IMG/VR virus record: IMGVR_UViG_3300028392_000238
Location: 1-28,400 of that record
Source of the DNA: a virus
Direction: 5' to 3' (one strand)
DNA: 28,400 bases
The notes beneath the pieces are model-generated. The model was not told the DNA's origin, made no database searches, and saw only the letters and a program-made list of their open reading frames with translations. Position 1 is the first letter of the stretch. Every line of letters starts with the position of its first letter. This document shows, piece by piece, positions 3,474 to 24,838 of the stretch. The translations under genes were made by a program, and so were the position numbers.

Positions 3474-3743
3474 ATGGCACGACGACACTTCCCAGGCATG
3501 ACTCAAGACTGGCTTGAGAAGAAGCTGCGCGTCGCGATGGAGGCCGAGGGAAGCGGGCAGCGCACGGTGTCAGGCGGTGCCGGTGACCTGACATCTTCTG
3601 TTCTAATCACAGAGAGCGCGCCCGCTTTGAAACGAAAACTTCTGTATGACTTAAACATCGTCGCGCCAGCTACTTACCCAGCGGCTGACGTGTTGATTCC
3701 AACGCGGACAGTTGCTCACTTCGGCTCCAACACGCAGCTATGA
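3474..3743 (+). CDS. Small protein in the gpW (head joining) position
   Basis: This 89-residue protein is the first gene of the rightward morphogenesis block. AAGGG four bases upstream supports the ATG at 3474, and a second ATG is at 3498. The segment DWLEKKLRVAMEAEGSGQRT, followed by a glycine turn, loosely resembles the start of gpW-type head-tail joining proteins. The C-terminal half does not fit that family. The stop overlaps the protease start by 4 bases. The position between terminase and protease is where lambda-like phages place gpW, so the suggestion is mainly from context. The sequence is less GC-rich than its neighbours. Confidence 0.5.
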   Translation: MARRHFPGMTQDWLEKKLRVAMEAEGSGQRTVSGGAGDLTSSVLITESAPALKRKLLYDLNIVAPATYPAADVLIPTRTVAHFGSNTQL

Positions 3744-4558
3744 CGCACACCCATCTTCTCGGTCTGATCGGTCAGCCGGCGCTCATCACCGCGACCGCTT
3801 ACACCGCGGCCAAGCAGTTGATTCTTGCGCGCATCGCGGGCCAGCCGCAGGCCGTCCGAGAGGGTTACGGCCCGTGCGGTGAAGAGGTCGAGATGCCCCA
3901 GATGGTAATCGAGAACGGCATCGCTGTCATCCCGGTCGCCGGCATCCTTGGGTGGAAGCTGTCCGGCATGGAGAAGGGGTCGGGCTGCACCGACTATTCC
4001 GACATCATCGATGACATCGAGGTCGCCTCGGCTGATCCGACGGTGACTACCATCGTCTTCGACATCGACTCGCCGGGCGGGATGGTTTCGGGAGTCTCGG
4101 AATGCGCCGACGCCATCGCGATGTCAGGCAAGCGAACCATCGCCTACGGGTCTGGTCTCGTCTGCTCCGCGGCCTACTGGCTGGCCTGCGCGTGTGATGA
4201 GATTTGGGCCACGCCGTCCGCGACTATCGGGTCGATTGGCGTCTATGTGCCTCACCACGACGTGACCGAGATGCTGGCGAAGGAAGGCATCAAGGTCCGG
4301 CTCTTCGCGAGCGGAACGCTCAAAGGTGCCGGCTACCCTGGCGTCCCTCTCACCGAGGCCCAAGCCACCGACATCCAATCCGCGGTGGATGCCATCAACG
4401 TGGATTTCCAAGCGTTCGTCACGTCGGCCCGCGGAGCCATTGATGGCGGCGACATGCAGGGCCAGACGTTCCGAGCCGTTGAGGCCCAAAACAGGGGCTT
4501 GATTGATGTCATCACCGCCGATTGGCAGTACACCTTGGGCGAACCCGAGGCAGACTGA
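3740..4558 (+). CDS. Head maturation protease, S49 family
   Basis: This 272-residue serine protease resembles SppA and lambda gpC and probably processes scaffold or coat during prohead maturation. Key elements are VFDIDSPGGMVSG around 107-118, the nucleophile S143 in GLVCSAAYWLA, the IGSIGVYV strand at 163-170, and the candidate general base K195 in FASGTLKGAGYP. The length fits an S49 domain alone, without the C-terminal scaffold extension of lambda gpC. A separate coiled-coil gene follows at 4586. The first 50 residues show no signal peptide, consistent with a cytoplasmic assembly protease. Confidence 0.9.
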   Translation: MTHTHLLGLIGQPALITATAYTAAKQLILARIAGQPQAVREGYGPCGEEVEMPQMVIENGIAVIPVAGILGWKLSGMEKGSGCTDYSDIIDDIEVASADPTVTTIVFDIDSPGGMVSGVSECADAIAMSGKRTIAYGSGLVCSAAYWLACACDEIWATPSATIGSIGVYVPHHDVTEMLAKEGIKVRLFASGTLKGAGYPGVPLTEAQATDIQSAVDAINVDFQAFVTSARGAIDGGDMQGQTFRAVEAQNRGLIDVITADWQYTLGEPEAD

Positions 4559-5095: not shown

Positions 5096-6265
5096 ATGGC
5101 AAACACTATCACCAACCTCATTCCTGATGCGTACGCGGCGAACGATGTCGTCTCGCGTGAGCTTGTCGGGTTCATCCCCTCTGTCACCCGTGACACCCGC
5201 GCTGACAGGGTCGCCATCGGGCAGAGCCTTCGCATCCCTATCGTCGCCTCCAACTCGGCCGGCCTCGATATCACCCCGGCGATGGCTTTCCCGACGCGAG
5301 CGGATCAGACCGTCTCTAATGTCGCGCTGACTATCACGAAGCAGCGGGCCTATCCGTTCTCCTGGACCAACGAGGAGCGGTACGCTATCAATCAGGGTCC
5401 TGGCATCCTGACCATCAATCAGGGGCAGATCCTCCAAGCGATGCGCGGCCTTGTGAACGAGATGGAGTCCGACATCGCTGTCGCGGCCAACCTCGGCAGT
5501 TCGCGAGCCTTTGGCACTGCCGGCACTACTCCGTTCGGAACCAACCTCGGCGAGAGCGCGCAGATCCGAAAGATTCTTGATGACAACGGCGCTCCTGGTT
5601 CGGACCGGTCGCTTGTGGTCGGGACCGCTTCCGGTGCCGCACTCCGAACCCTGCTGAACAACCCGCTGAATGCGAACAACTCGCTAAACGGTGACATGAC
5701 CAAGCAGGGTGTCATTCTCGACCTGAATGGGTTCAAGTTCCGCGAGAGTGCCCAGATTGTCTCTGCTACTGCCGGAGCGATGGCGAGCGCGACTTCTACC
5801 AGCGCCGCGTTCACGGTCGGGCAGACTGTCATCCCGCTGGCTACTGCCGGCACTGGTGTCGTGGCCGCTGGCGACATCGTCACGTTTGTGAACGACGCCA
5901 ACAAATACGTCGTCACCTCGGTCTCGTTTGCAGGTGCGAACCCGGCCTCTGGCGATACCATCACGCTGGCCGCTCCCGGCCTTCGAGTCGCCCAGGGTGT
6001 CGCCACCCGTGCCATCACCGTCATCGCCTCCGGCAGCCGTAACATCGGTATGAGCCGCAACGCGATTCTGTTCGCTACTCGACTTCCCGAGTCCGTCGAG
6101 AAGGACTTGGCGTTCGTGAAGGAGATCATCACCGATCCTGTCTCTGGTATCTCCTTCGAGATCGCCGGCTATCCCGGGATTGACATGGCGACCTATCACG
6201 TCCGCGCCTGCTGGGGCGTCAAGGTCGTCAAGCCTGAGCATATCGCCACCCTGCTCGGAGCTTGA
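5096..6265 (+). CDS. Major capsid protein, P22 coat family
   Basis: This 389-residue HK97-fold coat protein belongs to the P22 gp5-like family. The N-terminus MANTITNLIPDAYAANDVVS and the following RELVGFIPSV are characteristic of that family. Other shared segments are the ITKQRAYPFSWTNEE strand and the PGIDMATYHVRACWGVKVVK ending. Residues roughly 223-310, rich in Ala, Gly, Thr and Val, look like an inserted beta domain comparable to the P22 I-domain. The gene is followed by an intrinsic terminator, so it ends the first structural block. The pairing with an S49 protease differs from P22 itself, which does not proteolyse its coat. Confidence 0.9.
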   Translation: MANTITNLIPDAYAANDVVSRELVGFIPSVTRDTRADRVAIGQSLRIPIVASNSAGLDITPAMAFPTRADQTVSNVALTITKQRAYPFSWTNEERYAINQGPGILTINQGQILQAMRGLVNEMESDIAVAANLGSSRAFGTAGTTPFGTNLGESAQIRKILDDNGAPGSDRSLVVGTASGAALRTLLNNPLNANNSLNGDMTKQGVILDLNGFKFRESAQIVSATAGAMASATSTSAAFTVGQTVIPLATAGTGVVAAGDIVTFVNDANKYVVTSVSFAGANPASGDTITLAAPGLRVAQGVATRAITVIASGSRNIGMSRNAILFATRLPESVEKDLAFVKEIITDPVSGISFEIAGYPGIDMATYHVRACWGVKVVKPEHIATLLGA

Positions 6266-6372: not shown

Positions 6373-6894
6373 ATGGCACTTATCACCGTCACGGGAATCG
6401 CGAAACGTCCGACCGGGGAACCGTCTGAGCTGGTGCGTTTTGATAGGCGAGTTGCACCGGATCAGATTGGAGACACCACCGTCACGGGGCATCGCGCGCG
6501 AGTGGTTCCGAATGCGACCACAGGAGCCTTTTCTGTGGGGCTTTATCAGGGCAGCTACTTCTACTATCCGTGGAATGATTGCAAGAGCCCGTTGATTGTC
6601 AACGTCGCGGCGACGCCATCAACGCAAACCATCGACAGCATCGTTGAGGCTGCGACGATTACCACGACCGACCTTCCGGTCTTCTTCTACACGCTCGCCA
6701 CTCTGCGCGCCAGGACGCGCCACGCCGAGCTTCACGGCGTGATGATGGGCTACGGCGTCACGGTCGGAGACGGCAAGGCGGGCCTGTTCTATTTCTCATC
6801 CGCAAGCACCACCACGGACGACGACGCTCTGAGCTGCGTCAAGCCGACCGACATCGCAACCGCAAACCCCGGCCGCTGGCTTCGACTCTCATGA
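6373..6894 (+). CDS. Fibre-associated or adaptor protein
   Basis: This 173-residue protein precedes the large fibre and overlaps it by 4 bases. The first 100 residues are beta-rich and look like an Ig or carboxypeptidase-regulatory-like domain. The end, GDGKAGLFYFSSASTTTDD followed by VKPTDI and GRWLRL, is a motif common in tail fibres and tailspikes. The neighbouring fibre has a related GDG...FWYD...DDA segment near residue 195. It may be a separate receptor-binding or attachment subunit of the same appendage. No signal peptide is seen. The start is not supported by a strong ribosome binding site. Confidence 0.5.
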   Translation: MALITVTGIAKRPTGEPSELVRFDRRVAPDQIGDTTVTGHRARVVPNATTGAFSVGLYQGSYFYYPWNDCKSPLIVNVAATPSTQTIDSIVEAATITTTDLPVFFYTLATLRARTRHAELHGVMMGYGVTVGDGKAGLFYFSSASTTTDDDALSCVKPTDIATANPGRWLRLS

Positions 6895-9800
6895 TCCGCT
6901 TCATTTCCGTTCTACTCTTCGCGCTGACGCTTTGCACCGCGGAGGCTCAGACCACCGTTGCATGGCTGACCAATGCCACGGGTCTGTCATCCCTTCCACC
7001 CACAAGTTCTCGGCAAGCTGTCTCCGTCGGAAACGAATCATCCGGTTGGAGTCAATGGAACTGGAGCGCAACCAGCACGGCATCGACAAACTCAACCATC
7101 GTGGCTTACACCGGCCTCGCAACTGGTCGGTGGATTCAATCCCCTATCACTGGAAGCGCCTCCGGTCTTCTCACAACCGGAAACTCAACGGCCGCTCTTG
7201 GTATCGCAAACAAGCAGATGGTTGATGCGGTCGGGACGATTGTAACCAACAACGCAGCGGCTGGATTGGCGGCGACCAACGGAGTCGCCGTGGGCCTCAC
7301 CACGCCCACCGTCCCGGCGACAGGAAACAGCGTGGTCAACAAGACCGCGCTTGATGCTGCGGCCGCTGGAAGCATTTCCACAAACGCGCCCATCCAGCTA
7401 GCCACGGTCTCCGCGCTCAAGGCGTCGTCCATTGTCACCAACTCCGGTCAGCTCGTCGCGCTAGGGGGCTACACTACGACCGGTGACGGAGGCGGCGGCA
7501 CATTCTGGTACGACGCATTTGATAGCACCACACCTGATGATGCGTTTAAGACGCTTGTCTCCACTTCGGGCGGCCGTCGGTACAAGCGACTGCTCAGTCA
7601 TCAAGTCACACCGTTGATGTTCGGGGCCAAAGGCGACGGTACGGGCGATGACTCGTCCGCGCTGCTCCGGGCGATTCTATGGTGCAAGACCAATGCGTAT
7701 ACCCTCGATGGCCTCGGTCGCACCTACCGACTGACCAACTCCGTCGGTGCGCGCAGCTCCCTGTCCAACCTCGCAACGGACGGATACGGCTCCGGGATGA
7801 CGATGAGGAACATCAACTTCCTCCAAGCCGCGACCAATACACCGATCTTGGTTTGGGATCTCTCGACATCGACCAACCTTGTGGCCGGCGATGGCGGCTG
7901 GGGATTCCAGAACTTGTCTTTCAACTGGGTGACCAAGCCGGCCGCTGGCGACACGGAGTCGGCCGCGTTCTACCTGTCAGCTCCCGCCATCGTGTCGGGA
8001 TCTCGCGACTACTCGTTCATCTGCAACTCCTACCTTCGTGACATTGTGTTTGGGCAAGGGCATACTGGGTTTCTCATAAAAGGCAAAGGCAACTTCTGGG
8101 GAAATAAGTGCCACAACCTGAGTTGGTATCAGGGATGGAGCGGTCCGGGAATCGATTTCTCGGCGATGGGAACGTATCAGGCGGGGGCTCCCGGAAATAC
8201 GTTCGACGGCCTTTATGCGAATGTGAGCGGGTTCACGAGCACATCGCAGAACACTTTCCTGGACCTCGGCATCCAACAGGAGGGTTCGATCCGCAACGTC
8301 GAGTTCAACAGCGGCGTCAACGCCATCAAGCAGTACATCACCGCAAGCCAAGCCAGGAACACGACCATCCGCACAATCCGGCTAGAAGGTGGCATTTGGA
8401 GCCCTGCCTACTCAGGTTTTATCTCGCTTCCAAATCCGCAGTCCGGAGTCGTCGTCGATGGCTTGTCGCTGAACAACTTGGACATCAGCGGGAACGGGTA
8501 TTTCGTCCGACTTCCGGCCGTCGGCCCGGCTACCGACACCAGATTGCATGGGTTCGTCTTCGACACTTGCCGGCTGACATCGGCTAATCTCTACGGGGTG
8601 GGTGGTTCCGGCAACACTGGCGAAATTGCTCCCGTGCAGGCATTGAACCCTACTTTAACCGGCTCGACTTGGGGCCACATCACCCCAGACGGGACGGCTC
8701 TCACGTTCGGCATCATCCGGTCCAGCCGGCTCTGGACATCGGCAAACCGTGGAGATGCCGATGTCACCTTGGTTTCTGGCACGGATGCCGGAATCCAGAT
8801 GTTCAACACCACGCTCACCACGAACCGCACGGTGACGCTGTCCACAACCGGAGTGGCCAATGGGGACGAGTTCAGCATCGTCCGCACCGGTGGCGGCCTG
8901 TATCCGCTCAATGTGGGCGGTCTTTTCTCCTTTGCGCCGAGCCAGACCGGAGCCGTGCGCGTGAGGTACGTCGAGACTGGGTCCTATGCGGGCAGTTGGG
9001 TGATGGTGAATGATGCCCGGAATCCCGCTCCGGCAATCTCATTGGCCACGACCTCGAAAGCCGAGGACTACACGCTCCAGTTCGATGGCACGACCGCGAA
9101 CAGTCGTGCGTGGTGGCCCTTGGGGACCAGCACCAGCATGGCGTCGTCTCCGCTCACCGTGCTCGCAGAGGTCGGCAGCACCGGGACCGCCGCAGACGCT
9201 GCTAATCGGGGAATCTGGACGTTTAGCAGCGGGAACAACGCCTACTCCGCGTCTTCGCTTTCGATGTACCGCGCGACCAATGCGCTGTGCATCGAATTGA
9301 CTGGAGCGACTCCTGGGACCGACTTCCGGCGAATCTACGTGCAGGGCCTGTTCATTAACATGCCGTCGCGCGAGCTGCCCATCGCGGTGACATGGGACAG
9401 GACGAATGCGCCGGTCGTGTACGTGGACGGCAATGTTGTGGCCACAACCGAGACCACTGGAGGAACCGCGCCCGCTTGGACGAACACCATCGCGACCGCC
9501 TATTTCAACTTGGGCGTTCTGGCGGCCACTGACCTGTGGAACAACCGCCTTCAAGCTCGTGTTATCAACACCGTGATGTCGCCGACCGAGATCGCGGCGT
9601 GGGCCAGCACGGGCCGTTCCCCACTCGCAGCGGCCCGACCGGCAAATGTTTCGATCTACGCATCCAATTTCTCATCGGGAGTTGACGGATGGGTCGCTCC
9701 CAATGGGACGGATACGTTGACCGGAGCTGTCACAACGTCTCCCTACACGACCTCGACGATGCGTTTTGTGGCGGGCGCTTTCTCGGGAAGCCACCAAGCG

Positions 9801-11147
9801 GCGAGATACTCCGTGTTCACGCCGGGCCGCCGCTATCGTGTCTCGGGGAGAATCCAAATGGCGTCTGGAAATGTGACGATGGTGGGGTTTGTTGTGAAGA
9901 CGGAAGCCAATTACGCACAGCTGGCCACCATCCCGCCACTGTCTGCGTGGTACGACTTCTCTCTGGATTTCGTTTCGAGCGGAGCTTCCCTCTACATCGG
10001 TGGGGCTAATGCTGCCGGTTCTGAGACGTTCACCGGTAACGGGACCGACAACTTCGTCCTTTATGGACTTCGCATCGCAGAAGTGGGCAGCCTGTTCTCG
10101 CCGACCATCATGGCCGGAACATCAGTACCCGACAAATCGGGCAACGGGATCACCGGCACGCTGGTCGGCGGCGTGCTCCCGTTCACGGGCAGCGGCTATG
10201 ACGGGTCATCTGCTATCCCGGCGACGGCGATCCCTGCGTTCACTGGCGGGCAGGTGACCAATGCGGCAGGCTCGGCTGTGCTGTCGCTGAACACGACCAA
10301 CGCGAATGTCGGCACCTTTGGAAGCGCCACGCAATCGGGTCAGTTCGTGGTCAACACCAACGGCCTCATCACGGCGGCGACGAACATCACAGTCACTCCG
10401 GCAATCACCAACGTTACCGGGCTCGGGGGCGGTGTTGGGACACTCCTTGCCGGAACAGCCAGTGGAACGGGCGGTCCTGCTGGGACAACATCGCCATCGT
10501 TGACGACTCCGACGTTCCTCTCCGGCGCGACCCTTGGGAACGGCGGAGGAAACCCGATTCTGCTAATCAACGGCGCTGCGGCCGGTGTGAAGGGATTCGA
10601 TATACAGAGCGGCGGAGTTTACCGCTGGCGGATAGCCACGTCAGGTTCTGAGACCGGCGCGAACGCTGGTTCGTACCTGCAATTCGCGGGATACAGTGAT
10701 GCTGGAGCTGTGCTCAGCACACCGATGGCTATCACTCGCGATGGCACGATTTACATGAAGGCAGGAGCTGCCGCATCGGCCGCTACCTACTTCCCTGTTT
10801 TTCTCGGGAACCCGGCAATCGGGCAAACACTGATCGAGTCCCGAACCGCCGCGCAGGTACGGTCTGATATTGGGGCTGTGTCCAGCACGTCGGCTGTCAT
10901 TGGAGCAAATGGTGTCGCCGTCACTCGTCTTCGCCACGGTCGCACTTCCGCAATGGTCGCTGGCACGACTACTGTTGCTGACTCGTATGTCACCGCCAGC
11001 ACTCGCATCATCCTCACTGTGTACACACCTGGAGGCATACGCGGTTTCTTGGATACTGGCACTCGCACAGCATCCACATCATTCACAATCACTTCATCTT
11101 CCGCTCTGGAAACTTCTGTAGTTGATTGGGTAGCTTTTGAGCCTTAA
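6891..11147 (+). CDS. Large tailspike/tail fibre with signal peptide
   Basis: This 1418-residue multidomain fibre probably binds or degrades host surface glycans. Residues 1-19 look like a Sec signal peptide: a basic start, a hydrophobic core SVLLFALTL, and AEA before Q20. A GDGGGGTFWYD segment is near 195. FGAKGDGTGDDSSALLRAI near 245-262 is the typical entry motif of pectate-lyase-like beta helices, and a long beta-rich region follows. Residues 721-915 resemble a LamG-like domain with AVTWDRTNAPVVYVDG. Residues 925-1070 resemble a carbohydrate-binding module. The last 30 residues, ending VVDWVAFEP, match a common fibre tip. Fibre identity is well supported; enzymatic activity is not shown. 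Confidence 0.85.
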   Translation: MIRFISVLLFALTLCTAEAQTTVAWLTNATGLSSLPPTSSRQAVSVGNESSGWSQWNWSATSTASTNSTIVAYTGLATGRWIQSPITGSASGLLTTGNSTAALGIANKQMVDAVGTIVTNNAAAGLAATNGVAVGLTTPTVPATGNSVVNKTALDAAAAGSISTNAPIQLATVSALKASSIVTNSGQLVALGGYTTTGDGGGGTFWYDAFDSTTPDDAFKTLVSTSGGRRYKRLLSHQVTPLMFGAKGDGTGDDSSALLRAILWCKTNAYTLDGLGRTYRLTNSVGARSSLSNLATDGYGSGMTMRNINFLQAATNTPILVWDLSTSTNLVAGDGGWGFQNLSFNWVTKPAAGDTESAAFYLSAPAIVSGSRDYSFICNSYLRDIVFGQGHTGFLIKGKGNFWGNKCHNLSWYQGWSGPGIDFSAMGTYQAGAPGNTFDGLYANVSGFTSTSQNTFLDLGIQQEGSIRNVEFNSGVNAIKQYITASQARNTTIRTIRLEGGIWSPAYSGFISLPNPQSGVVVDGLSLNNLDISGNGYFVRLPAVGPATDTRLHGFVFDTCRLTSANLYGVGGSGNTGEIAPVQALNPTLTGSTWGHITPDGTALTFGIIRSSRLWTSANRGDADVTLVSGTDAGIQMFNTTLTTNRTVTLSTTGVANGDEFSIVRTGGGLYPLNVGGLFSFAPSQTGAVRVRYVETGSYAGSWVMVNDARNPAPAISLATTSKAEDYTLQFDGTTANSRAWWPLGTSTSMASSPLTVLAEVGSTGTAADAANRGIWTFSSGNNAYSASSLSMYRATNALCIELTGATPGTDFRRIYVQGLFINMPSRELPIAVTWDRTNAPVVYVDGNVVATTETTGGTAPAWTNTIATAYFNLGVLAATDLWNNRLQARVINTVMSPTEIAAWASTGRSPLAAARPANVSIYASNFSSGVDGWVAPNGTDTLTGAVTTSPYTTSTMRFVAGAFSGSHQAARYSVFTPGRRYRVSGRIQMASGNVTMVGFVVKTEANYAQLATIPPLSAWYDFSLDFVSSGASLYIGGANAAGSETFTGNGTDNFVLYGLRIAEVGSLFSPTIMAGTSVPDKSGNGITGTLVGGVLPFTGSGYDGSSAIPATAIPAFTGGQVTNAAGSAVLSLNTTNANVGTFGSATQSGQFVVNTNGLITAATNITVTPAITNVTGLGGGVGTLLAGTASGTGGPAGTTSPSLTTPTFLSGATLGNGGGNPILLINGAAAGVKGFDIQSGGVYRWRIATSGSETGANAGSYLQFAGYSDAGAVLSTPMAITRDGTIYMKAGAAASAATYFPVFLGNPAIGQTLIESRTAAQVRSDIGAVSSTSAVIGANGVAVTRLRHGRTSAMVAGTTTVADSYVTASTRIILTVYTPGGIRGFLDTGTRTASTSFTITSSSALETSVVDWVAFEP

Positions 11148-11149
11148 TA

Positions 11150-11266
11150 AATATAGATACACCTATTGCAGAAATTCCACTCGACGCAATCGTCGTCTCC
11201 ACCACCACCAAAACAGTCGTTGAGACCGAAACAGACGTTGTCGCGTGGATGATGATCGAACCCTAA
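11150..11266 (+). pseudogene. Remnant of a second fibre tip
   Basis: Directly after the fibre stop there are 38 open codons with no start codon, in a different frame. They end TETDVVAWMMIEP and then TAA. The fibre itself ends LETSVVDWVAFEP, with 7 of these 13 positions identical. A TGA in the remnant frame at 11138-11140 and the absence of a slippery site make translation by frameshifting unlikely. It is best read as the decayed end of a duplicated or replaced fibre tip. Confidence 0.6.
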
Positions 11267-11272
11267 TCCAGC

Positions 11273-11395
11273 ATGAACACCCACCGCTACACCACGCGCG
11301 CAACCGGCCGCCGCGAGAAGGTCCCGGCCGGCGATGTCGGAACGATTGCCCTGATGGTCATCATCGCCGCGATGGTCGCGGTCTGCGCGCTCTGA
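11273..11395 (+). CDS. Small single-pass membrane protein, 40 aa
   Basis: This 40-residue protein starts 6 bases after the fibre-tip remnant and ends one base before the next gene. A basic N-terminal half (RATGRREKVPAG) is followed by a hydrophobic helix, VGTIALMVIIAAMVAVCAL, reaching the C-terminus. It opens a run of small membrane proteins, so a holin or pinholin-like or accessory lysis role is possible. It has no family that I recognise and is short enough to be doubted. Confidence 0.45.
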   Translation: MNTHRYTTRATGRREKVPAGDVGTIALMVIIAAMVAVCAL

Positions 11396-11396
11396 T

Positions 11397-11642
11397 ATGG
11401 ATTCAACCGAACAGATAGCCGAAACCACCAATCGCTCCGGGGCTTTCATTGCGGACACAATCAAAGCCGCGCTACCGGTCTGTGGAGGGAGCGCGCTGGC
11501 CACGCTCCACAGCGCGGACGTAGTGGTGACATTTGCGACCCATATCATCGGCCTGTGCGCCGCGGCCGTCGGGCTCGCGTGGTACATCGTCCGCCTGCGA
11601 AAAGACATTCGGAACCGGAACAAGGCCTCCAACAAAAACTAA
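11397..11642 (+). CDS. Holin-like small membrane protein
   Basis: This 81-residue protein has a hydrophobic segment, VVVTFATHIIGLCAAAVGLAW, around residues 42-62. It is followed by the basic tail YIVRLRKDIRNRNKASNKN. A weaker hydrophobic stretch lies around 24-36. Size, topology and position just before a second small holin and the spanin genes suggest a holin or antiholin that times inner-membrane permeabilisation. I cannot place it in a named holin family. Confidence 0.55.
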   Translation: MDSTEQIAETTNRSGAFIADTIKAALPVCGGSALATLHSADVVVTFATHIIGLCAAAVGLAWYIVRLRKDIRNRNKASNKN

Positions 11643-11644
11643 AC

Positions 11645-11824
11645 ATGAACGAAACCTATCAATCCATTCTCCGCTCCATCCTCAAAGTCGGGGCCGGCGT
11701 ACTTGTCACGAAGGGACTCACCGACTCCGCGGGAGCCGAGACCATCGTCGGCTCGCTCATCGGACTCATCTCGGTTGTGTGGGGCATCATCGCCGCGCGC
11801 TCCGCCACGGCGAACAAACCGTGA
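11645..11824 (+). CDS. Putative holin, Pam3-gp28-like
   Basis: This 59-residue protein has an amphipathic N-terminal helix, a KGLTDSAGAETIVGSL middle, and a hydrophobic helix, IGLISVVWGIIAAR. The pattern is typical of the very small holins annotated as Pam3 gp28-like. It would sit in the cytoplasmic membrane and open it at lysis. I chose the ATG at 11645, two bases after the previous stop. A longer in-frame extension would run inside the neighbouring gene. The stop overlaps the GTG start of the i-spanin candidate. Confidence 0.65.
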   Translation: MNETYQSILRSILKVGAGVLVTKGLTDSAGAETIVGSLIGLISVVWGIIAARSATANKP

Positions 11825-12072
11825 CCATCGCCATCATCGGCGCGCTGCTGGCGCTCCTGGCGGCTCTGGCTCCTGCGCTCGCGCGCTGGATTACCAGCCG
11901 CCAGGACCGCGCTGCCGACCCCGAGACCGCCCGCAACCGCCGCATCGACACCGCTGCCCATGACATTGCCACGACCCCGCCAGGACTTGCGCCAGAGGCT
12001 TCTGCTCACGGCCTTGCTGACCTCGATGCTCTGGAGCGGCTGCGCCCACCGGATCGTCATCGTCCCCAGTGA
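11821..12072 (+). CDS. i-spanin-like membrane protein (Rz-like)
   Basis: The reading frame starts with GTG in a GTGA overlap with the holin and encodes 83 residues. Residues 1-22 form a membrane anchor (IAIIGALLALLAALAPALA). A charged, Arg/Asp-rich periplasmic part and a Pro-rich end follow. The lipoprotein gene at 11960 begins inside it in another frame and shares 113 bases, as in Rz/Rz1 pairs. In such pairs the inner-membrane spanin binds the outer-membrane lipoprotein to disrupt the outer membrane. The periplasmic part is short, so the call depends on the pairing. Confidence 0.5.
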   Translation: MTIAIIGALLALLAALAPALARWITSRQDRAADPETARNRRIDTAAHDIATTPPGLAPEASAHGLADLDALERLRPPDRHRPQ

Positions 12073-12208
12073 CGACGCCGTGGTGAGGCTCAAGGCCGGC
12101 ACCGCCTACACTCCCGCCGCCGATGGCTGGTACATGACCGACAGCCTCTACCTCCGATACCGCCGCGCGGTGGCGGACAAGATTGCCGAGAACACGACTT
12201 CAAAATGA
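11960..12208 (+). CDS. o-spanin-like lipoprotein (Rz1-like)
   Basis: This 82-residue protein starts inside the i-spanin candidate. A basic N-terminus and the hydrophobic LLLTALLTSMLWSGC give a lipoprotein signal with C28 as the likely lipidated residue. The -3 position is Trp, which is not ideal for a lipobox. The mature part carries VVRLKAGTAYTPAADGWYMT followed by a short helix, a pattern I associate with small phage lipoproteins of lysis cassettes. It would sit in the outer membrane and partner the upstream protein. It implies a Gram-negative host. Confidence 0.6.
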   Translation: MTLPRPRQDLRQRLLLTALLTSMLWSGCAHRIVIVPSDDAVVRLKAGTAYTPAADGWYMTDSLYLRYRRAVADKIAENTTSK

Positions 12209-12411
12209 TCGCTCTGAACAGTCGGTGGAAATGCAAGTTCCTGTCTGGCAACGGACCTTCAAAAAGTCCGCAGGCACCGAACGAGTTTTTCGTCAAAGAG
12301 CTTCGAGATACCCGCGGCCTGTTAATGATTGGCGTCGTTCAAGCGACATCTTGCGCGCCGCCGACAACGTGGAACGCATTCGACTTCTTGAAGAACTTCG
12401 CCGAGATCTGA
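12205..12411 (+). CDS. Hypothetical protein, 68 aa
   Basis: This frame starts in an ATGA overlap with the o-spanin gene and ends four bases before the next gene, so it fills the gap exactly. It encodes 68 residues with no membrane segment, signal or recognisable motif. A competing frame covers the same bases with an Arg-rich product containing ERIRLLEELRRDL, and that frame runs on into the next gene. I prefer this frame because of its boundaries. The evidence is modest. Confidence 0.35.
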   Translation: MIALNSRWKCKFLSGNGPSKSPQAPNEFFVKELRDTRGLLMIGVVQATSCAPPTTWNAFDFLKNFAEI

Positions 12412-13497: not shown

Positions 13498-13973
13498 GCC
13501 ACCTCGCCACCATCCACACCGCCCGCGGGATTGCGGCCTACCTCCGCACGATTGACCCCGTGCTCGTTCCTGCGCTCCAGGTCGTGTCCGGTATCTCGCG
13601 AGGTTATCAGGTATCTCCATCCAGCGAGGAGCAAGACGCCTCCGTCCCACTGCCCCGCATCGTGGTCCACTCCGCGAGCGCCCCGCAGCTCGCGCACCTC
13701 ACCGGATCTTGGCGTCCGTCCGTCACGGTGGAGCTTCACGAATCCGCCGATGACACCAGCGAGGCCGACCATCTTGTCAGGGCCGACGCGATGCTCGACG
13801 CTTTGATGCAATCAGACCTAGCATCTTTGATCACCGCCGCGTCTACTTCCGCCGTGATACCGCTCACCGTCCAACTTGCAGTTGTGGAGAGCGTGGCATC
13901 CGAGGTCCGCGAGCGTCGCTTTATCTTCACGGTCAACCTCACCCTCGACGTGGTGTGCATCACCCTCGCTTGA
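13494..13973 (+). CDS. Putative tail terminator protein
   Basis: This 159-residue alpha/beta protein has the layout typical of gpU-like tail terminators. An N-terminal helix comes first, then strands such as LPRIVVHSASA and RPSVTVELHESADD. A helix with DHLVRADAMLDALMQS follows, and the end is the strand FIFTVNLTLDVVCITLA. Tail terminators cap the tail tube and join it to the head. The gene is coupled to the previous one by a 4-base overlap and ends one base before the portal start. The family assignment is from pattern and context only. Confidence 0.5.
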   Translation: MSHLATIHTARGIAAYLRTIDPVLVPALQVVSGISRGYQVSPSSEEQDASVPLPRIVVHSASAPQLAHLTGSWRPSVTVELHESADDTSEADHLVRADAMLDALMQSDLASLITAASTSAVIPLTVQLAVVESVASEVRERRFIFTVNLTLDVVCITLA

Positions 13974-19270: not shown

Positions 19271-22200
19271 ATGGCCGTATCCTTCCCCCGCGTCTCGCAG
19301 GTAGCGCCCGGCCAGCCGTTCTCCAGCTCAAATCTGGTGAGCCTTGCCAATGGCATCAACGAGCGGCTGGTCAGCGGTCTGGCGGAGCCGTGGCGCATCG
19401 CTTTCTACTTCTACTCTGCACTTTTGCAGATACGGAACCCGAGCGGCTACCTGTTCCCGGCGCGTGGGGAGTTCTTGGAGTTCTACCAGTCCGTACTGCC
19501 GACCGAGGCCGAGTGGCCGCTGAGTCCGCCCGGCACCGAGGAAGGCGCGAACATCGCCTCGTTCATGCCGGCCTTCGTCTTCGGGGCCGAGGCGCTGGAC
19601 CTGAACAACGAGGCCGTCCGCCTCTCCGACCCTCTGGCCGGCGGCGTTCCGCTGTCTATCAGCAGCGGCTACACGCAAGGCTCCGCGCGCTACAACTGGG
19701 AGCTGGGCAAATATCAGCGCGGAGCCTACGACCGCACCACCGGCCTGATATTCTCGCCGACGTTCACAGCGGCCAGGTCGCACTTCGCTATTGTCTCGGC
19801 CGGCGTGAGCGAGCACGGCAAATCCTACGGCGGGTACGCGCCCACCCCCGAGTACCTCGGCGAGTGCGCCGGCAGCGGCTCAACCACCACCTCGCCGTTG
19901 CTCAACTACGAGTTGTTTTTCTCGGTCACCGCCACGGGCGCGGCCCTCGGTCTCACCACCAAGACGTATGCCGGAACCTGCCCTACGGCCTACGGCGGGC
20001 TTTCGACCGATGTCTCCTTTATCTACCGCTTCCCCTGGGCCTTCGTGGTCGTGCTTAACTCAGGCGCGACCGAGTACCTCGACACCCGATTCTACATCGA
20101 GGGGCCTTACTCTGGCGGCAATCGGCTGGTGAAGCAGGATGGCGAGTTCCCCTCGCGCGTCCTGAATCATTTCGCATCGCAGTTCCGCGGCACCGATGCC
20201 CAGCGCCGGGCGCAATCGGTCCGCAACGTGGGCTTCGACACCCAGCGCTTCTTCACGCGCCAGTACGCGCTCGCGCCCGCGCACGGCCTCCAGACCGATG
20301 CCGAGACCGTCGTCGCTGACTACCAGACCTACGAGAGCACCGGCGCGCGCAACATCCCGGTCGGCACCCTGCTGACCAACCGCATCACCGGAGCCACGGC
20401 GCACGGCGTCGCCGAAGGCTTCTGCATCCACTCCATCCTCGCCGGCGCGGAGAAGCTGAGCGGGTCCGCCACCGTGCAGGTGCTCGACGATGGCGTGGTC
20501 ATCGGCACCGTGACGCTGACGCCCGATGCCACGGGCCACGCCGAGGACGTGCTGGTGCTCGACGCGCCCGCCGTCGGCTCCGTGACATTCAAGGTCTCCA
20601 GCGGCGCCGCACTTACCGATGCGGCCGGCGGCATCCTCATCGAGCCCGCCGAGCTGCTGAGCTACCTACCGCAGCACCACGACTGGTGTCTCGTCCTGCG
20701 CCTCGCCGGCGCGACACTCGTCCCGAACAACGGCACCGACGGCAGCGGCCTAGACGAAGAGCGCGCCAAGGAAATCGGCACCGACTACTGGCGCTGGGGC
20801 GCGGTCATCAACCAGCACGCCACGCCCGACCTCATATCATCCGAGGCCGCCATCAATGGCAACGCGGTGATGGAATCCACCCGGCTCCTGAGCAAGCGGG
20901 TCCGCCTGCTCAACCGCCACCAGCTCCGCGCCTACGCGGTTGAGAACGGCAAGTCCGTCCTCTGGTTCACCCGCTACTCCTACGGCTACGGCCTCGGTGC
21001 GTATCAGCCCAACGACGGCCCGCCGCCGACCAACGCCGTGCCCACCGGCGAGATCTCACCCTATGTGACCTACGTCGTCGGCGGCACCGCAGGCGGCACG
21101 GTGGACTATCAGGCCGTCACTTACGCCATAGGCGACACCTTCGTCGGCGTCACCGGGGACGATTCCTACACCACCGCGGGAGGCGGCGCCGTGTTCCTCG
21201 CCTCGTCCATCGTCGCTCCGCCCCCCGTGACCCGCCCGGTCAATGGCGACATGTTCGACGGCATCGGTCCGGCGACGGCACCCATCGCCAGCGGGTCGCT
21301 CCTGCCCGGCCGGCTCTACCGCGTGGCCGGCGCGACCATCGGCTACGACACCGCCGCCTACAACGCGGGCGCGACCTTCACCGCGACCGCCGTCCGCGAG
21401 TTTACCGGCAGCGGCCTGGTCTACGAGGCCAACGGCATCAAGACTTTCGCCGAGCCCAACAGCTACAGCAACGAGTGGGTTCTGGGCCTCCAGCTCAAAG
21501 GGTTCCGCGACAACGAGTCCAGCCTGTGGAAACCCGGCGCCTACTCCGACTATTTCGGCTTGTCCGAACGCTGCCAATTCTACCCGGTTTTTGCCGCCGC
21601 ACCGCTCCCCCGCGCGCTCAACTACCACTTCGCATACGGTCAAAAAATCTGGCTGGCCCCAGAGCTTCCCACCTCCTACCGCTACGCCGAGGGCACCAAC
21701 TCGACCGCCACCCTCGACTTCTACAAATCGTGCCGCATCTACGAGCCATGCCTTGAAATCTTGCGGACCGAGAACGTGACCGGCGAAGGCAACGAAGACC
21801 TCGTCAAAGTCACACTGAACGGCCGGCTCCACGCCCACGAAGACGCCATCGCCGCGGGTGACATCTCATCCACGTTCTTCAACAGCCCGTCGTTCATCAC
21901 CGCGCTCATCGCGCAGACCTATCGCACCGACGAGAGTGGCATCCTCTACTATCTCGCCCACCTCAACGGCAAGATTCCCCACCTCCCGACCTCGTGGAAA
22001 ACCGGTGACGCCGCGGCGGATTCGCTCATCCAGACCTATCCCGACCACCCCACCGCGACCTGCTTCCCGCACTTCTACCTGGTGAAGCTCATCGAGAAGC
22101 CGTGGATGGATGATAACACCACTGCCGGCCCAAGCGACACCAAGCTAGAGCACGACCCGATGAGCACCGCGGAGCTGTATCTCCGCCTGATGTGCGAGGG

Positions 22201-23179
22201 GTTTGTGGACGGCCGCACCTCCGAGACCTACGGCTGCGCCGTCGGCATCAATGCCGTCTATGACTACACCTGGGCCAACGTCTGTTTCGACGCCAACGGC
22301 CTCCCCTGGGTGCCCACGTTGGCCGCGACCGAGACCGCCAGACTCGACTCCACCAAGGTTCGCGCCGACGCGCCCAAGGGTTTCGGCGTAGCGCCGTTGA
22401 CCATCGCCGCCTCCGAGCAATTCAACTGGCTGGCGAACATCTGTAACCGACTCGACAAGGTGCGGGTGATGCTCCCGTATCAATTCGAGAGTCGTGAGCG
22501 GTCCGGGTTCGATAGCAACGCCGTTCCCATCTACAACAACGACGGCACGACCGGAGGACCGACCGGAGGGCAAGGATATTACATCGGCTCACCGACCGTC
22601 CCCGCGCTGTCGTTCACCGGCGCTTGGGCAGGCGGTCCAGCCAATCTCGCGGTCCACAATGCCGCGCTCACATCCCCGAGCACGCTGGAGACGACCCGCG
22701 GCGACATCGACTGGCGCTACGAGCCGACCGACCCCGACGCCATCTACGCCATCCCTGAGTCGTGGCGCGACATGATCGCCACCGATGCCGCCGCGCTGCT
22801 GGTCAAGACCACCGTCATCCAGAGCACATCGAGGACCGAGCTGCCGACCACCGCGGGCGCCACGATGTGCGGCGCGCGCTACTGGCCGACCGGCACCGGT
22901 TACCTCGATTTCGAACTCGTCAGCGTCTCCATCGAGACCTGTGTCGTGGCCAAGAGCGGCACCATCGTGGCACCCCCGCTCGGCGCGCAGGTGTTCCACT
23001 ACGACTCGACCGCGCCGACCTGCTACGGCAGCGCCGGCAACGCCGTCGGAATCGTGCCCGTGGTCACCGACTCGCTCATCCTCCAGGTCCCAATCGTGTC
23101 CGACTACATCAGATACACCCCGCCGTCCGGCGACTTCGATGCTGCGGATTTCAGCAACGCCGACTTCAAAACCGCATGA
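19271..23179 (+). CDS. Very large unrecognised tail-tip protein, 1302 aa
   Basis: This 1302-residue protein is the second largest in the window and lies where siphophages encode hub or tip proteins. It has no signal peptide. Residues about 380-470 look Ig-like (SATVQVLDDGVVIGTVTLT). Residues about 594-645 and 670-720 are two related beta modules. The first has YVVGGTAGGTVDYQAVTYAI and the second YRVAGATIGYDTAAYNAGA, each ending in a TG/Gly-rich turn. Many Trp, Tyr and Pro residues and scattered Cys are present. Codon use is more GC-rich than in the tape measure. I recognise no catalytic motif. A role in the tail tip or host recognition is inferred from place and size. Confidence 0.6.
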   Translation: MAVSFPRVSQVAPGQPFSSSNLVSLANGINERLVSGLAEPWRIAFYFYSALLQIRNPSGYLFPARGEFLEFYQSVLPTEAEWPLSPPGTEEGANIASFMPAFVFGAEALDLNNEAVRLSDPLAGGVPLSISSGYTQGSARYNWELGKYQRGAYDRTTGLIFSPTFTAARSHFAIVSAGVSEHGKSYGGYAPTPEYLGECAGSGSTTTSPLLNYELFFSVTATGAALGLTTKTYAGTCPTAYGGLSTDVSFIYRFPWAFVVVLNSGATEYLDTRFYIEGPYSGGNRLVKQDGEFPSRVLNHFASQFRGTDAQRRAQSVRNVGFDTQRFFTRQYALAPAHGLQTDAETVVADYQTYESTGARNIPVGTLLTNRITGATAHGVAEGFCIHSILAGAEKLSGSATVQVLDDGVVIGTVTLTPDATGHAEDVLVLDAPAVGSVTFKVSSGAALTDAAGGILIEPAELLSYLPQHHDWCLVLRLAGATLVPNNGTDGSGLDEERAKEIGTDYWRWGAVINQHATPDLISSEAAINGNAVMESTRLLSKRVRLLNRHQLRAYAVENGKSVLWFTRYSYGYGLGAYQPNDGPPPTNAVPTGEISPYVTYVVGGTAGGTVDYQAVTYAIGDTFVGVTGDDSYTTAGGGAVFLASSIVAPPPVTRPVNGDMFDGIGPATAPIASGSLLPGRLYRVAGATIGYDTAAYNAGATFTATAVREFTGSGLVYEANGIKTFAEPNSYSNEWVLGLQLKGFRDNESSLWKPGAYSDYFGLSERCQFYPVFAAAPLPRALNYHFAYGQKIWLAPELPTSYRYAEGTNSTATLDFYKSCRIYEPCLEILRTENVTGEGNEDLVKVTLNGRLHAHEDAIAAGDISSTFFNSPSFITALIAQTYRTDESGILYYLAHLNGKIPHLPTSWKTGDAAADSLIQTYPDHPTATCFPHFYLVKLIEKPWMDDNTTAGPSDTKLEHDPMSTAELYLRLMCEGFVDGRTSETYGCAVGINAVYDYTWANVCFDANGLPWVPTLAATETARLDSTKVRADAPKGFGVAPLTIAASEQFNWLANICNRLDKVRVMLPYQFESRERSGFDSNAVPIYNNDGTTGGPTGGQGYYIGSPTVPALSFTGAWAGGPANLAVHNAALTSPSTLETTRGDIDWRYEPTDPDAIYAIPESWRDMIATDAAALLVKTTVIQSTSRTELPTTAGATMCGARYWPTGTGYLDFELVSVSIETCVVAKSGTIVAPPLGAQVFHYDSTAPTCYGSAGNAVGIVPVVTDSLILQVPIVSDYIRYTPPSGDFDAADFSNADFKTA

Positions 23180-24639
23180 AAAGACTCGTCCTATCGCTCA
23201 TCCTCGCCACCTCGGCGCTCGGCCAGCTCTGGTCGCCGGCGCAGTTGAAAAACCACATCGCAACAAACCTCCCGAGCGGTGGGAGTATCACTGCGCTTAA
23301 GCTGCGCGAGACGTTGACGAACCTCGTGACCAGCACGCTGTTTGCGACCAACAACCTGAGCGACCTCAACTCCGCCTCCGCCGCGAGGTCGAACCTCGGA
23401 CTTGCCATCGGGATCCAGGTCCAGAGCTACGATTCGCAGCTCGACGAATTGGCGTCGGGTTCGCTGACTGGTTATGTCAAAGCAGCTGGTGCTGGCTCTT
23501 ACACCGCGGCGAGCACCATCCCAGCCACCGACTTGTCAGGAAACCTCGCCATCGCGCGCCTCAACAGCGGAACCTCCGCCAGCAGCTCGACGTACTGGCG
23601 AGGCGACGGGACGTGGGCGACACCGCCAAGCAGCAGCAGCACCAACGGCGGCACGGTGACCAGCGTGGCGGCTTCGGTCCCGGCGTTCCTATCCATCACA
23701 GGCTCGCCCATCACCACCTCAGGCACGCTGGCAATCTCCTATTCGGGCACCGCTCTCCCGGTAGCCAACGGCGGCACGGGCTCGACCACATCGACCGGGA
23801 CAGGCTCGGTCGTGCTCGCCGCCGGGGCAACCTTGACAACACCGACGCTTGGGGATGCCTCAGCCACCACCATCGCGGTCGCTAGCACGGCCAGCGCCGG
23901 CTCCGTGGTCTCGTTCGGCAACATCACGGCCGGTGGCAACATCACCGGATCAAACCTCTCCGGCAGCAACACTGGCGACCAGACAAGCGTGAGCGGCAAC
24001 GCAGGTACAGCCACCACGCTGGCCACCGGCCGCACCATCGGCATAACCGGCGACCTGACTTGGACCAGCCCGAGTTTCAATGGCTCGGGTAACGTCACGG
24101 CCGTCGGCACGCTGGCCACCGTGACTGTCCCCAAGGGCGGCAGCGGAGCCACCACGCTGACCGGCTACCTCTACGGCAACGGCGCCGCGCCGTTCACCGC
24201 ATCGAGCACTATCCCGGCCACGGACTTGTCCGGGACGATTGCAAACGCACGGCTTGATTCCACCGTGGTTATTACGACCTACGGTCAGACGTTGACTAGC
24301 AAGCGCGTCACTCCTCGCAGCGGTGTGACCACTGGATCGTCCGCGACGCTTGTTTTTTCTACCGACTCTAATGATGTGATCGAGGTCGGTACACTCACGT
24401 CGAACGTGACGCTAATCACTATCTCCGGAACTCCAACAAACGGACAGGTGCTACAGTTGTCATTCACACAAGACGGAACTGGTGGGCGCACCATCACTTG
24501 GCCATCAGGCGTGGCCTTCGGCACAGACTACACCTCGGCGATGGTTCCAACTACTGCAAACGCCAAGTGGCAGATGACACTGACCTACAACTCCGCTGGC
24601 TCTGTTTGGCGCGTCACGGGCATGGCGCGAGGCTTTTGA
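23176..24639 (+). CDS. Second tail fibre with signal peptide
   Basis: This 487-residue fibre starts at the ATG overlapping the stop of the 1302-residue gene. The frame is open further upstream, but only inside that gene. Residues 1-16 look like a Sec signal peptide (KRLVLSLILATSALG before Q17). The shaft has fibre-type repeats: TIPATDLSGNLAIARLNSG and TIPATDLSGTIANARLDST are clear copies. It is very rich in Thr, Ser, Gly and Ala, and STYWRGDGTWATP is a typical fibre motif. The C-terminal domain with ITISGTPTNGQVLQLSFTQD and RTITWPSGVAF resembles known fibre tips. Receptor binding is the likely role. Confidence 0.8.
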   Translation: MKRLVLSLILATSALGQLWSPAQLKNHIATNLPSGGSITALKLRETLTNLVTSTLFATNNLSDLNSASAARSNLGLAIGIQVQSYDSQLDELASGSLTGYVKAAGAGSYTAASTIPATDLSGNLAIARLNSGTSASSSTYWRGDGTWATPPSSSSTNGGTVTSVAASVPAFLSITGSPITTSGTLAISYSGTALPVANGGTGSTTSTGTGSVVLAAGATLTTPTLGDASATTIAVASTASAGSVVSFGNITAGGNITGSNLSGSNTGDQTSVSGNAGTATTLATGRTIGITGDLTWTSPSFNGSGNVTAVGTLATVTVPKGGSGATTLTGYLYGNGAAPFTASSTIPATDLSGTIANARLDSTVVITTYGQTLTSKRVTPRSGVTTGSSATLVFSTDSNDVIEVGTLTSNVTLITISGTPTNGQVLQLSFTQDGTGGRTITWPSGVAFGTDYTSAMVPTTANAKWQMTLTYNSAGSVWRVTGMARGF

Positions 24640-24640
24640 C

Positions 24641-24838
24641 ATGATCGCCTTTCGCGCCAGCCAGCGGGTCCAGAGCCATCCGCGGGCCGATGCCGCGCGG
24701 CACGCCGCCTGCACCGCCTGCGAGTGGCTGGTGGAGTCCACATGCCGCCACCCATCGCGCGCCTGCGGATGCCCGCTCAACGCCATCCGCATCCAGCCCT
24801 GGACCAAGCTCCGCCGATGCCCCGCCGGCGCGTGGTGA
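24641..24838 (+). CDS. Cys-rich miniprotein, probable zinc binder
   Basis: This 65-residue protein starts one base after the fibre stop. Its cysteines are at 24, 27, 35, 42, 44 and 60, with the pattern CTAC, then CRHPSRACGCP, and RRCPAGAW at the end. This spacing resembles small phage proteins with a zinc-binding fold and a CPxGxW ending. I know of no proven function for them. A TGA stop ends it in a GTGA context, but the next gene probably starts further on at 24916. Confidence 0.6.
   Translation: MIAFRASQRVQSHPRADAARHAACTACEWLVESTCRHPSRACGCPLNAIRIQPWTKLRRCPAGAW

Follow-up and report, generated by a model that had tools for sequence, protein, structure and literature searches.

The fibres of tailed phages are normally assembled in the cytoplasm, and neither the P22 tailspike nor the EPS depolymerase tailspikes of phages are known to be made with a leader peptide; tailless particles can also acquire P22 tailspikes in vitro. 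In the filamentous phage M13, the coat proteins pIII and pVIII are synthesized with a signal sequence and are inserted or exported ahead of virion assembly (PMC8310372). A survey of P. gingivalis phages found coat proteins with signal peptides, plus proteins that follow the Q-rule (PMC10367356). Under that rule, glutamine occupies the +1 position in >48% of signal peptidase I (SPase I) substrates in nearly all Bacteroidetes species (PMC5837995).

Here, we analyzed a 28.4 kb stretch of viral DNA, hereafter the window (28,400 nt; IMG/VR record IMGVR_UViG_3300028392_000238), which encodes a GpA-type terminase, a lambda-type portal, an S49 protease, a P22-like coat, a short tape measure, and a probable lysis cassette, together with two fibre-like proteins, F1 and F2. 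The features discussed below are as follows.

1180-2997, strand opposite to most structural genes: terminase large subunit
3740..4558, + strand: phage S49-family protease (PF01343, 2.8e-25), at most a candidate processor of the leaders
5096..6265, + strand: P22-like coat protein, starting MANTITN and without the leader that some of its homologues in other phages carry
6891..11147, + strand: F1, a 1418-aa tailspike/depolymerase-like fibre with PHROG EPS depolymerase and tail-fibre matches, and Pfam K1-lyase_C above cut-off
6891..6947, + strand: predicted F1 signal peptide, MIRFISVLLFALTLCTAEA↓Q; L087 has this leader too, ending AQA↓Q
11397..12208, + strand: probable lysis cassette, two small membrane proteins and then an 82-aa probable lipoprotein, assigned by inspection only
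19271..23179, + strand: 1302-aa tail gene, without a leader, its stop overlapping the F2 start (ATGA)
23102..24641, + strand: F2 cassette, comprising the end of the 1302-aa gene and F2, missing from L082
23176..24639, + strand: F2, a 487-aa tail-fibre-like protein with leader, ~40-aa linker, shaft modules and C-terminal head domain
23176..23223, + strand: predicted F2 signal peptide, MKRLVLSLILATSALG, cut before Q17, or alternatively at A14↓L15

F1 resembles P22 and EPS depolymerase tailspikes in its matches to EPS depolymerase and tail-fibre PHROGs and, unlike them, has a leader. The leaders reported here are similar to those of diderm Sec/SPase I substrates in their n/h/c layout, A-X-A type site, length (16-24 residues) and fast drift with conserved properties, but differ from the usual ones in standing on tailed-phage fibre and tailspike bodies. 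M13 is assembled in the inner membrane and extruded, whereas the present phage is tailed, has a dsDNA genome and carries terminase, portal and probable lysis genes. The P. gingivalis phages likewise have host-type signal peptides on phage proteins, including a structural one, with Gln after cleavage in some; there, however, the proteins are coat proteins, spanins and products of unknown genes, not tail fibres, and the host belongs to the Bacteroidetes (PMC10367356). Within the limited set of papers searched, none described tail fibres with signal peptides, an empty search being no proof of absence.

The leader of F2 and its start codon

F2 is an intact gene of 487 codons starting MKRLVLSLILATSALGQLWSPAQLK, and its first 17 residues (window 23176-23226; MKRLVLSLILATSALGQ) comprise a basic n-region (KR), a hydrophobic, uncharged core, and a c-region of small residues. 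The start is firm because the ATG and the stop of the upstream 1302-aa gene overlap by four bases (ATGA); the F1 start at 6891 also overlaps the stop of its upstream gene as ATGA. The next in-frame start seen in F2, a TTG at 23248, lies 72 nt downstream and would leave an untranslated gap of ~70 nt. Leaders were scored with a rule of our own, which calls for a basic n-region, 7-15 uncharged hydrophobic residues, and small residues at -3/-1, all of them Sec/SPase I features that the F2 leader was found to possess. F1 scored 38.4 and F2 28.9. Together, the intact reading frame, n/h/c layout, score and well-placed start confirmed the claim, made in a preliminary description of this DNA, that the 487-residue fibre opens with a signal-like segment. 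That description also held that both mature proteins begin with Gln, which is clear for F1 (AEA↓Q) and less clear for F2, where ALG↓Q (G16↓Q17) and TSA↓L (A14↓L15) are both possible, and where the c-region (ALG) is weaker than that of F1. A second copy of the F2 leader was not found, a search with the F2 N-terminus giving shaft matches only.

Scores of at least 28 were reached by 6 of the 333 window ATGs with at least 45 open codons, those on the + strand being exactly the two fibre starts, and by F1 and F2 only among the ~25 gene starts of the window. Under the same rule, none of the 34 annotated genes of the Verrucomicrobia phage P8625 scored 24 or more. When residues 2-40 were shuffled, 1.7% of trials matched the protein's own score for F2 and 0.15% for F1. 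Taken alone, the F2 leader is only moderate evidence and its strength rests on the phage group, the evidence from which led us to reject a chance origin of the leaders.

Leaders across the phage group

The kin considered here are the window and three related records (L087, L082 and L083), four related records in all. L087, with a terminase 99% identical to that of the window, keeps the F1 leader (MIRFISVLLFALTLCTAQA↓Q), and its gene adjoining F1 starts MKTLVLAIALCLPACA↓QFNFFH. The L082 homologue of the latter, a LamG lectin by Pfam, starts MKTKLAILLALCLPACA↓QFRFFH, both leaders having the pattern MKT..LCLPACA↓QF. The lysis cassettes of L082 and L083 have 92-95% DNA identity to that of the window, and the 1302-aa tail gene, for which Pfam, PHROGs and the phage collection all gave no match, is 94-95% identical in these otherwise quite different phages. 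The lysis cassette is directly downstream of F1 and is adjoined by leader-bearing adhesin genes in the window, L087, L082 and L083. A search for relatives via the 283-aa gene of the window returned none.

The main fibres of L082 and L083 were 5′-truncated in the loci first examined, and the missing DNA was then examined as a blind test. These fibres start MRRLRLLLSLLLAVAVAVAVPARA↓QGTRIK and MRCLRPLFFLLLAVAVAVPARA↓QGTRIK, with leader scores of 52.0 and 44.8, respectively. A leader was present on 7/7 large adhesin genes for which the 5′ end could be read (F1 twice, F2, the LamG-type gene twice, and the L082/L083 fibre twice), representing four leader families, or five if the L082 and L083 fibres, which differ in body, are counted apart. 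The base rate came from 83 fibre ORFs of IMG/VR chosen for their similarity to the F2 shaft, whatever their N-terminus, one of which, in L060, had a leader. L060, a phage not evidently kin of the window, has two adjacent fibre-like genes (8474-11254 and 11254-12351) with signal-peptide-like starts and an ATGA overlap, the first carrying a Phage Tail Collar domain. For the families found after the two fibres of the preliminary description, the comparison was 2/2 vs 1/83 (p = 0.0008), with families treated as independent and the records few and related.

That two leader-bearing fibres in one phage reflect a system and not chance is supported by the leader on every readable large adhesin gene of the kin, including the two blind checks, and the possibility that related phages show no enrichment is contradicted (7/7 adhesin genes in the kin vs 1/83 fibres). 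Homologues starting without the segment, which the preliminary description had counted against its proposal, do exist among the fibres of other phages and show only a group trait. On the sequences compared, possession of a leader goes with the phage group and not with the type of fibre body.

Divergence of leader sequences

Between L087 and L082, 7 of 16 leader codons differ non-synonymously, as do 8 of 18 between the fibre leaders of L103 and L197, with the leader property kept in both cases; for both pairs, 0.2-0.3% of random mutants with an equal number of base changes hold an equal score. The L371/L372 leaders are identical at 58 of 72 bases, with several substitutions and a two-residue indel, and the mature part at 370 of 378, such that 8 of the 126 codons following the leader differ, one non-synonymously. 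Hence charge, hydrophobic core and cleavage motif are kept while leader sequences diverge. Such drift with kept properties is how signal peptides evolve, a pattern that the predicted leaders appear to follow.

Fibre bodies and the F2 cassette

F2 as a whole had no family match of its own. Its shaft modules include NLSDLNSASAARSNLGL, YWRGDGTWATP and PVANGGTG, and the shaft (residues 25-77) has weak matches (best E 0.003) to annotated tail fibres from phages of Roseobacter, Puniceispirillum, Lentibacter and Pseudomonas. The shaft module starts at residue ~58 in F2 vs 255-664 in five annotated fibres, and F2 has ~40 residues between leader and shaft, without a long conventional N-terminal region. 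Shaft and head modules are common to F2 and annotated tail fibres, and the same holds for F1 by its tail-fibre and EPS depolymerase matches. In L371/L372, the mature protein would begin with RIKDLPLTTTIPTNG...SIAQLA, which is similar to the module that opens a leaderless fibre (L046), and the leader of this pair appears to have been added ahead of an otherwise normal fibre. Two regex searches for N-terminal modules were uninformative, one being without any match and the other having too narrow a pattern. In place of the F2 cassette, L082 has six unaligned bases, after which it resumes (13831-13838) at window position 24642; the cassette, being absent from L082, is therefore an exchangeable unit.

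Acquisition of the fibres whole from host secreted proteins, as had been suggested, is unsupported: we rejected a host-captured secreted fibre for the bodies, which are ordinary phage shaft and tailspike modules with leaderless relatives elsewhere. The leader alone could be host-derived, and our search for DNA evidence of such an origin found none. A decoration-like gene in L209 has a leader (MKRFLLSLFLAVSALSQA) similar to that of F2 (DNA identity 37/54), and the phage fibre leader of L103 resembles that of a host S74 protein in the same genome (33/63). Copying of the leader from a host gene or its passage between phages was rejected at DNA identities of only this size, for which convergence suffices.

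Predicted N-terminal glutamine and the probable host

The predicted +1 residue is Gln in 4/4 leader families of the kin (the F2 site being ambiguous, with A14↓L15 possible). In Verrucomicrobiota, 11 of 41 proteins predicted to be secreted had Gln at +1 in one sample and 4 of 43 in one genome, proportions that fall short of the Bacteroidetes Q-rule values (PMC5837995). Of the six best genome hits among the nearest coat homologues, four were Verrucomicrobiaceae/Opitutaceae MAGs (59-62% identity), while the top hit and one other were labelled Gammaproteobacteria-type MAGs, and the window-type coat was present in only 2 of 387 Verrucomicrobiota genomes. By these affiliations, the host is probably verrucomicrobial. 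A co-occurrence of leader and host phylum was not established, and neither the fibre nor the lectin gene of P8625, an isolated phage of Verrucomicrobia, carries a leader.

The S74 (phage-fibre chaperone) domain was found in 48 of the 387 Verrucomicrobiota genomes. We discarded this search as a survey of phage fibres, its matches having turned out to be chromosomal host proteins. Secreted chromosomal proteins of Verrucomicrobiota with a C-terminal S74 have the recurrent start ...(A)QVPxLINYQGRL (L343, L344, L346, L350, L352, L357, L359). Like F1 and F2, they place a fibre-type protein behind a signal peptide, with Gln commonly at +1; unlike F1 and F2, they lie outside a phage context, and no homology to F1/F2 was seen.

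Leaders on coat and decoration proteins

Most of the 165 coat homologues start MANTLT, while ~15 have no Met there and a hydrophobic leader instead. These leaders, mostly 20-60 residues long and some with two hydrophobic stretches, end beside (A)NTLT, and the annotated coat gene of Rhizobium phage P106B includes one. Leader-bearing coat homologues include L091:135-1352, L094:126-1364, L101:9842, L200, L201, L205, L218, L234 and L251. Signal-peptide-like starts also occur on small decoration-like proteins (158-162 aa) encoded close to the coat gene (L097:9082-9567, L198:7490-7963, L209:8421-8906); these were picked by eye and checked singly, from a candidate list that was mostly antisense noise. 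A leader need not mean export, because coat proteins with similar leaders cannot plausibly be exported.

Discussion

The leader, its start placement, its group-wide presence and its kept properties come directly from the analysis, and from them we infer export, cleavage and later attachment to the virion. The group's leaders suggest that its fibres are sent out of the cell, and not mounted on the virus inside as usual. With cytoplasmic assembly being the usual route, export poses a delivery problem that only attachment after lysis would solve. Our main reading, to which we assign a probability of roughly 0.55, is that a genuine Sec signal peptide fronts the receptor-binding and depolymerase proteins of the group, which would be exported, cleaved, and attached at or after lysis. 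Late in the cycle, F2 and F1 would each be made by translational coupling to the upstream gene and threaded through SecYEG, and host SPase I would cut the leader, exposing an N-terminal Gln on F1 and probably on F2. The mature fibre would then have a normal phage-type N-terminus or shaft, and exported fibres may wait in the periplasm and join finished particles at or after lysis. Of the three meanings first suggested for the leaders, export is best supported, while anchoring is unsupported for fibres because the leaders end in signal-peptidase-type sites. Possible, though a more tentative proposal, is the general form of this reading, in which a group of tailed dsDNA phages would build its fibres and depolymerases via host Sec and add them from outside the cytoplasm at lysis, the leader being a group-wide front end on unrelated bodies.

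A less likely account accepts the signal peptide and takes the proteins to be non-virion products of the phage, either secreted or on the surface, whose adhesin and depolymerase activities would coat or modify the producing cell, for example by blocking superinfection or loosening the capsule before release. The early shaft of F2 (~58 vs 255-664), lacking the long N-terminal region that precedes it in true tail fibres, fits this account, as do the depolymerase and carbohydrate-lyase type domains of F1, the position of leader genes, one of them a LamG lectin, just upstream of the lysis cassette, and the many chromosomal secreted Verrucomicrobiota proteins that end in a phage-type S74 domain. 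However, tail-fibre modules make up the composite body of F2, whose gene follows the tail genes in the place of a tail fibre, the sequence after the L371/L372 leader resembles a canonical fibre N-terminus, and the phage would be left with few obvious receptor-binding fibres.

It is unlikely that the leader instead directs the protein to the inner membrane, where assembly would take place and either signal peptidase or a phage protease would cut the leader off, with export left incomplete. Coat homologues of other phages with similar leaders ending at (A)NTLT, with no Met there, would agree with such a role, as would the coat proteins with signal peptides mentioned in the P. gingivalis phage survey (PMC10367356) and the S49 protease of the window; yet the window's own coat has no leader, and the fibre leaders end in SPase I type sites followed by Gln, for which the S49 protease is at most a candidate. 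An artefact, be it a wrong start codon with the real F2 start downstream or a chance hydrophobic stretch, is highly improbable: the in-frame TTG at 23248, the 1.7% of F2 shuffles that reach the score, and the leaderless homologues of the F2 body are set against the ATGA overlap, leader properties kept despite sequence change, and recurrence in four to five gene families.

The textbook view is that the fibres of tailed phages are made in the cytoplasm and mounted on the tail before lysis. A consistent export leader on all readable large fibre genes of a phage group would imply either a second, extracytoplasmic way of adding fibres or a class of phage fibres whose target is the producing cell. 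For annotators, it would also be a warning that a hydrophobic N-terminus on a phage structural gene is often genuine, and that a signal peptide alone does not make a fibre-like gene a host gene.
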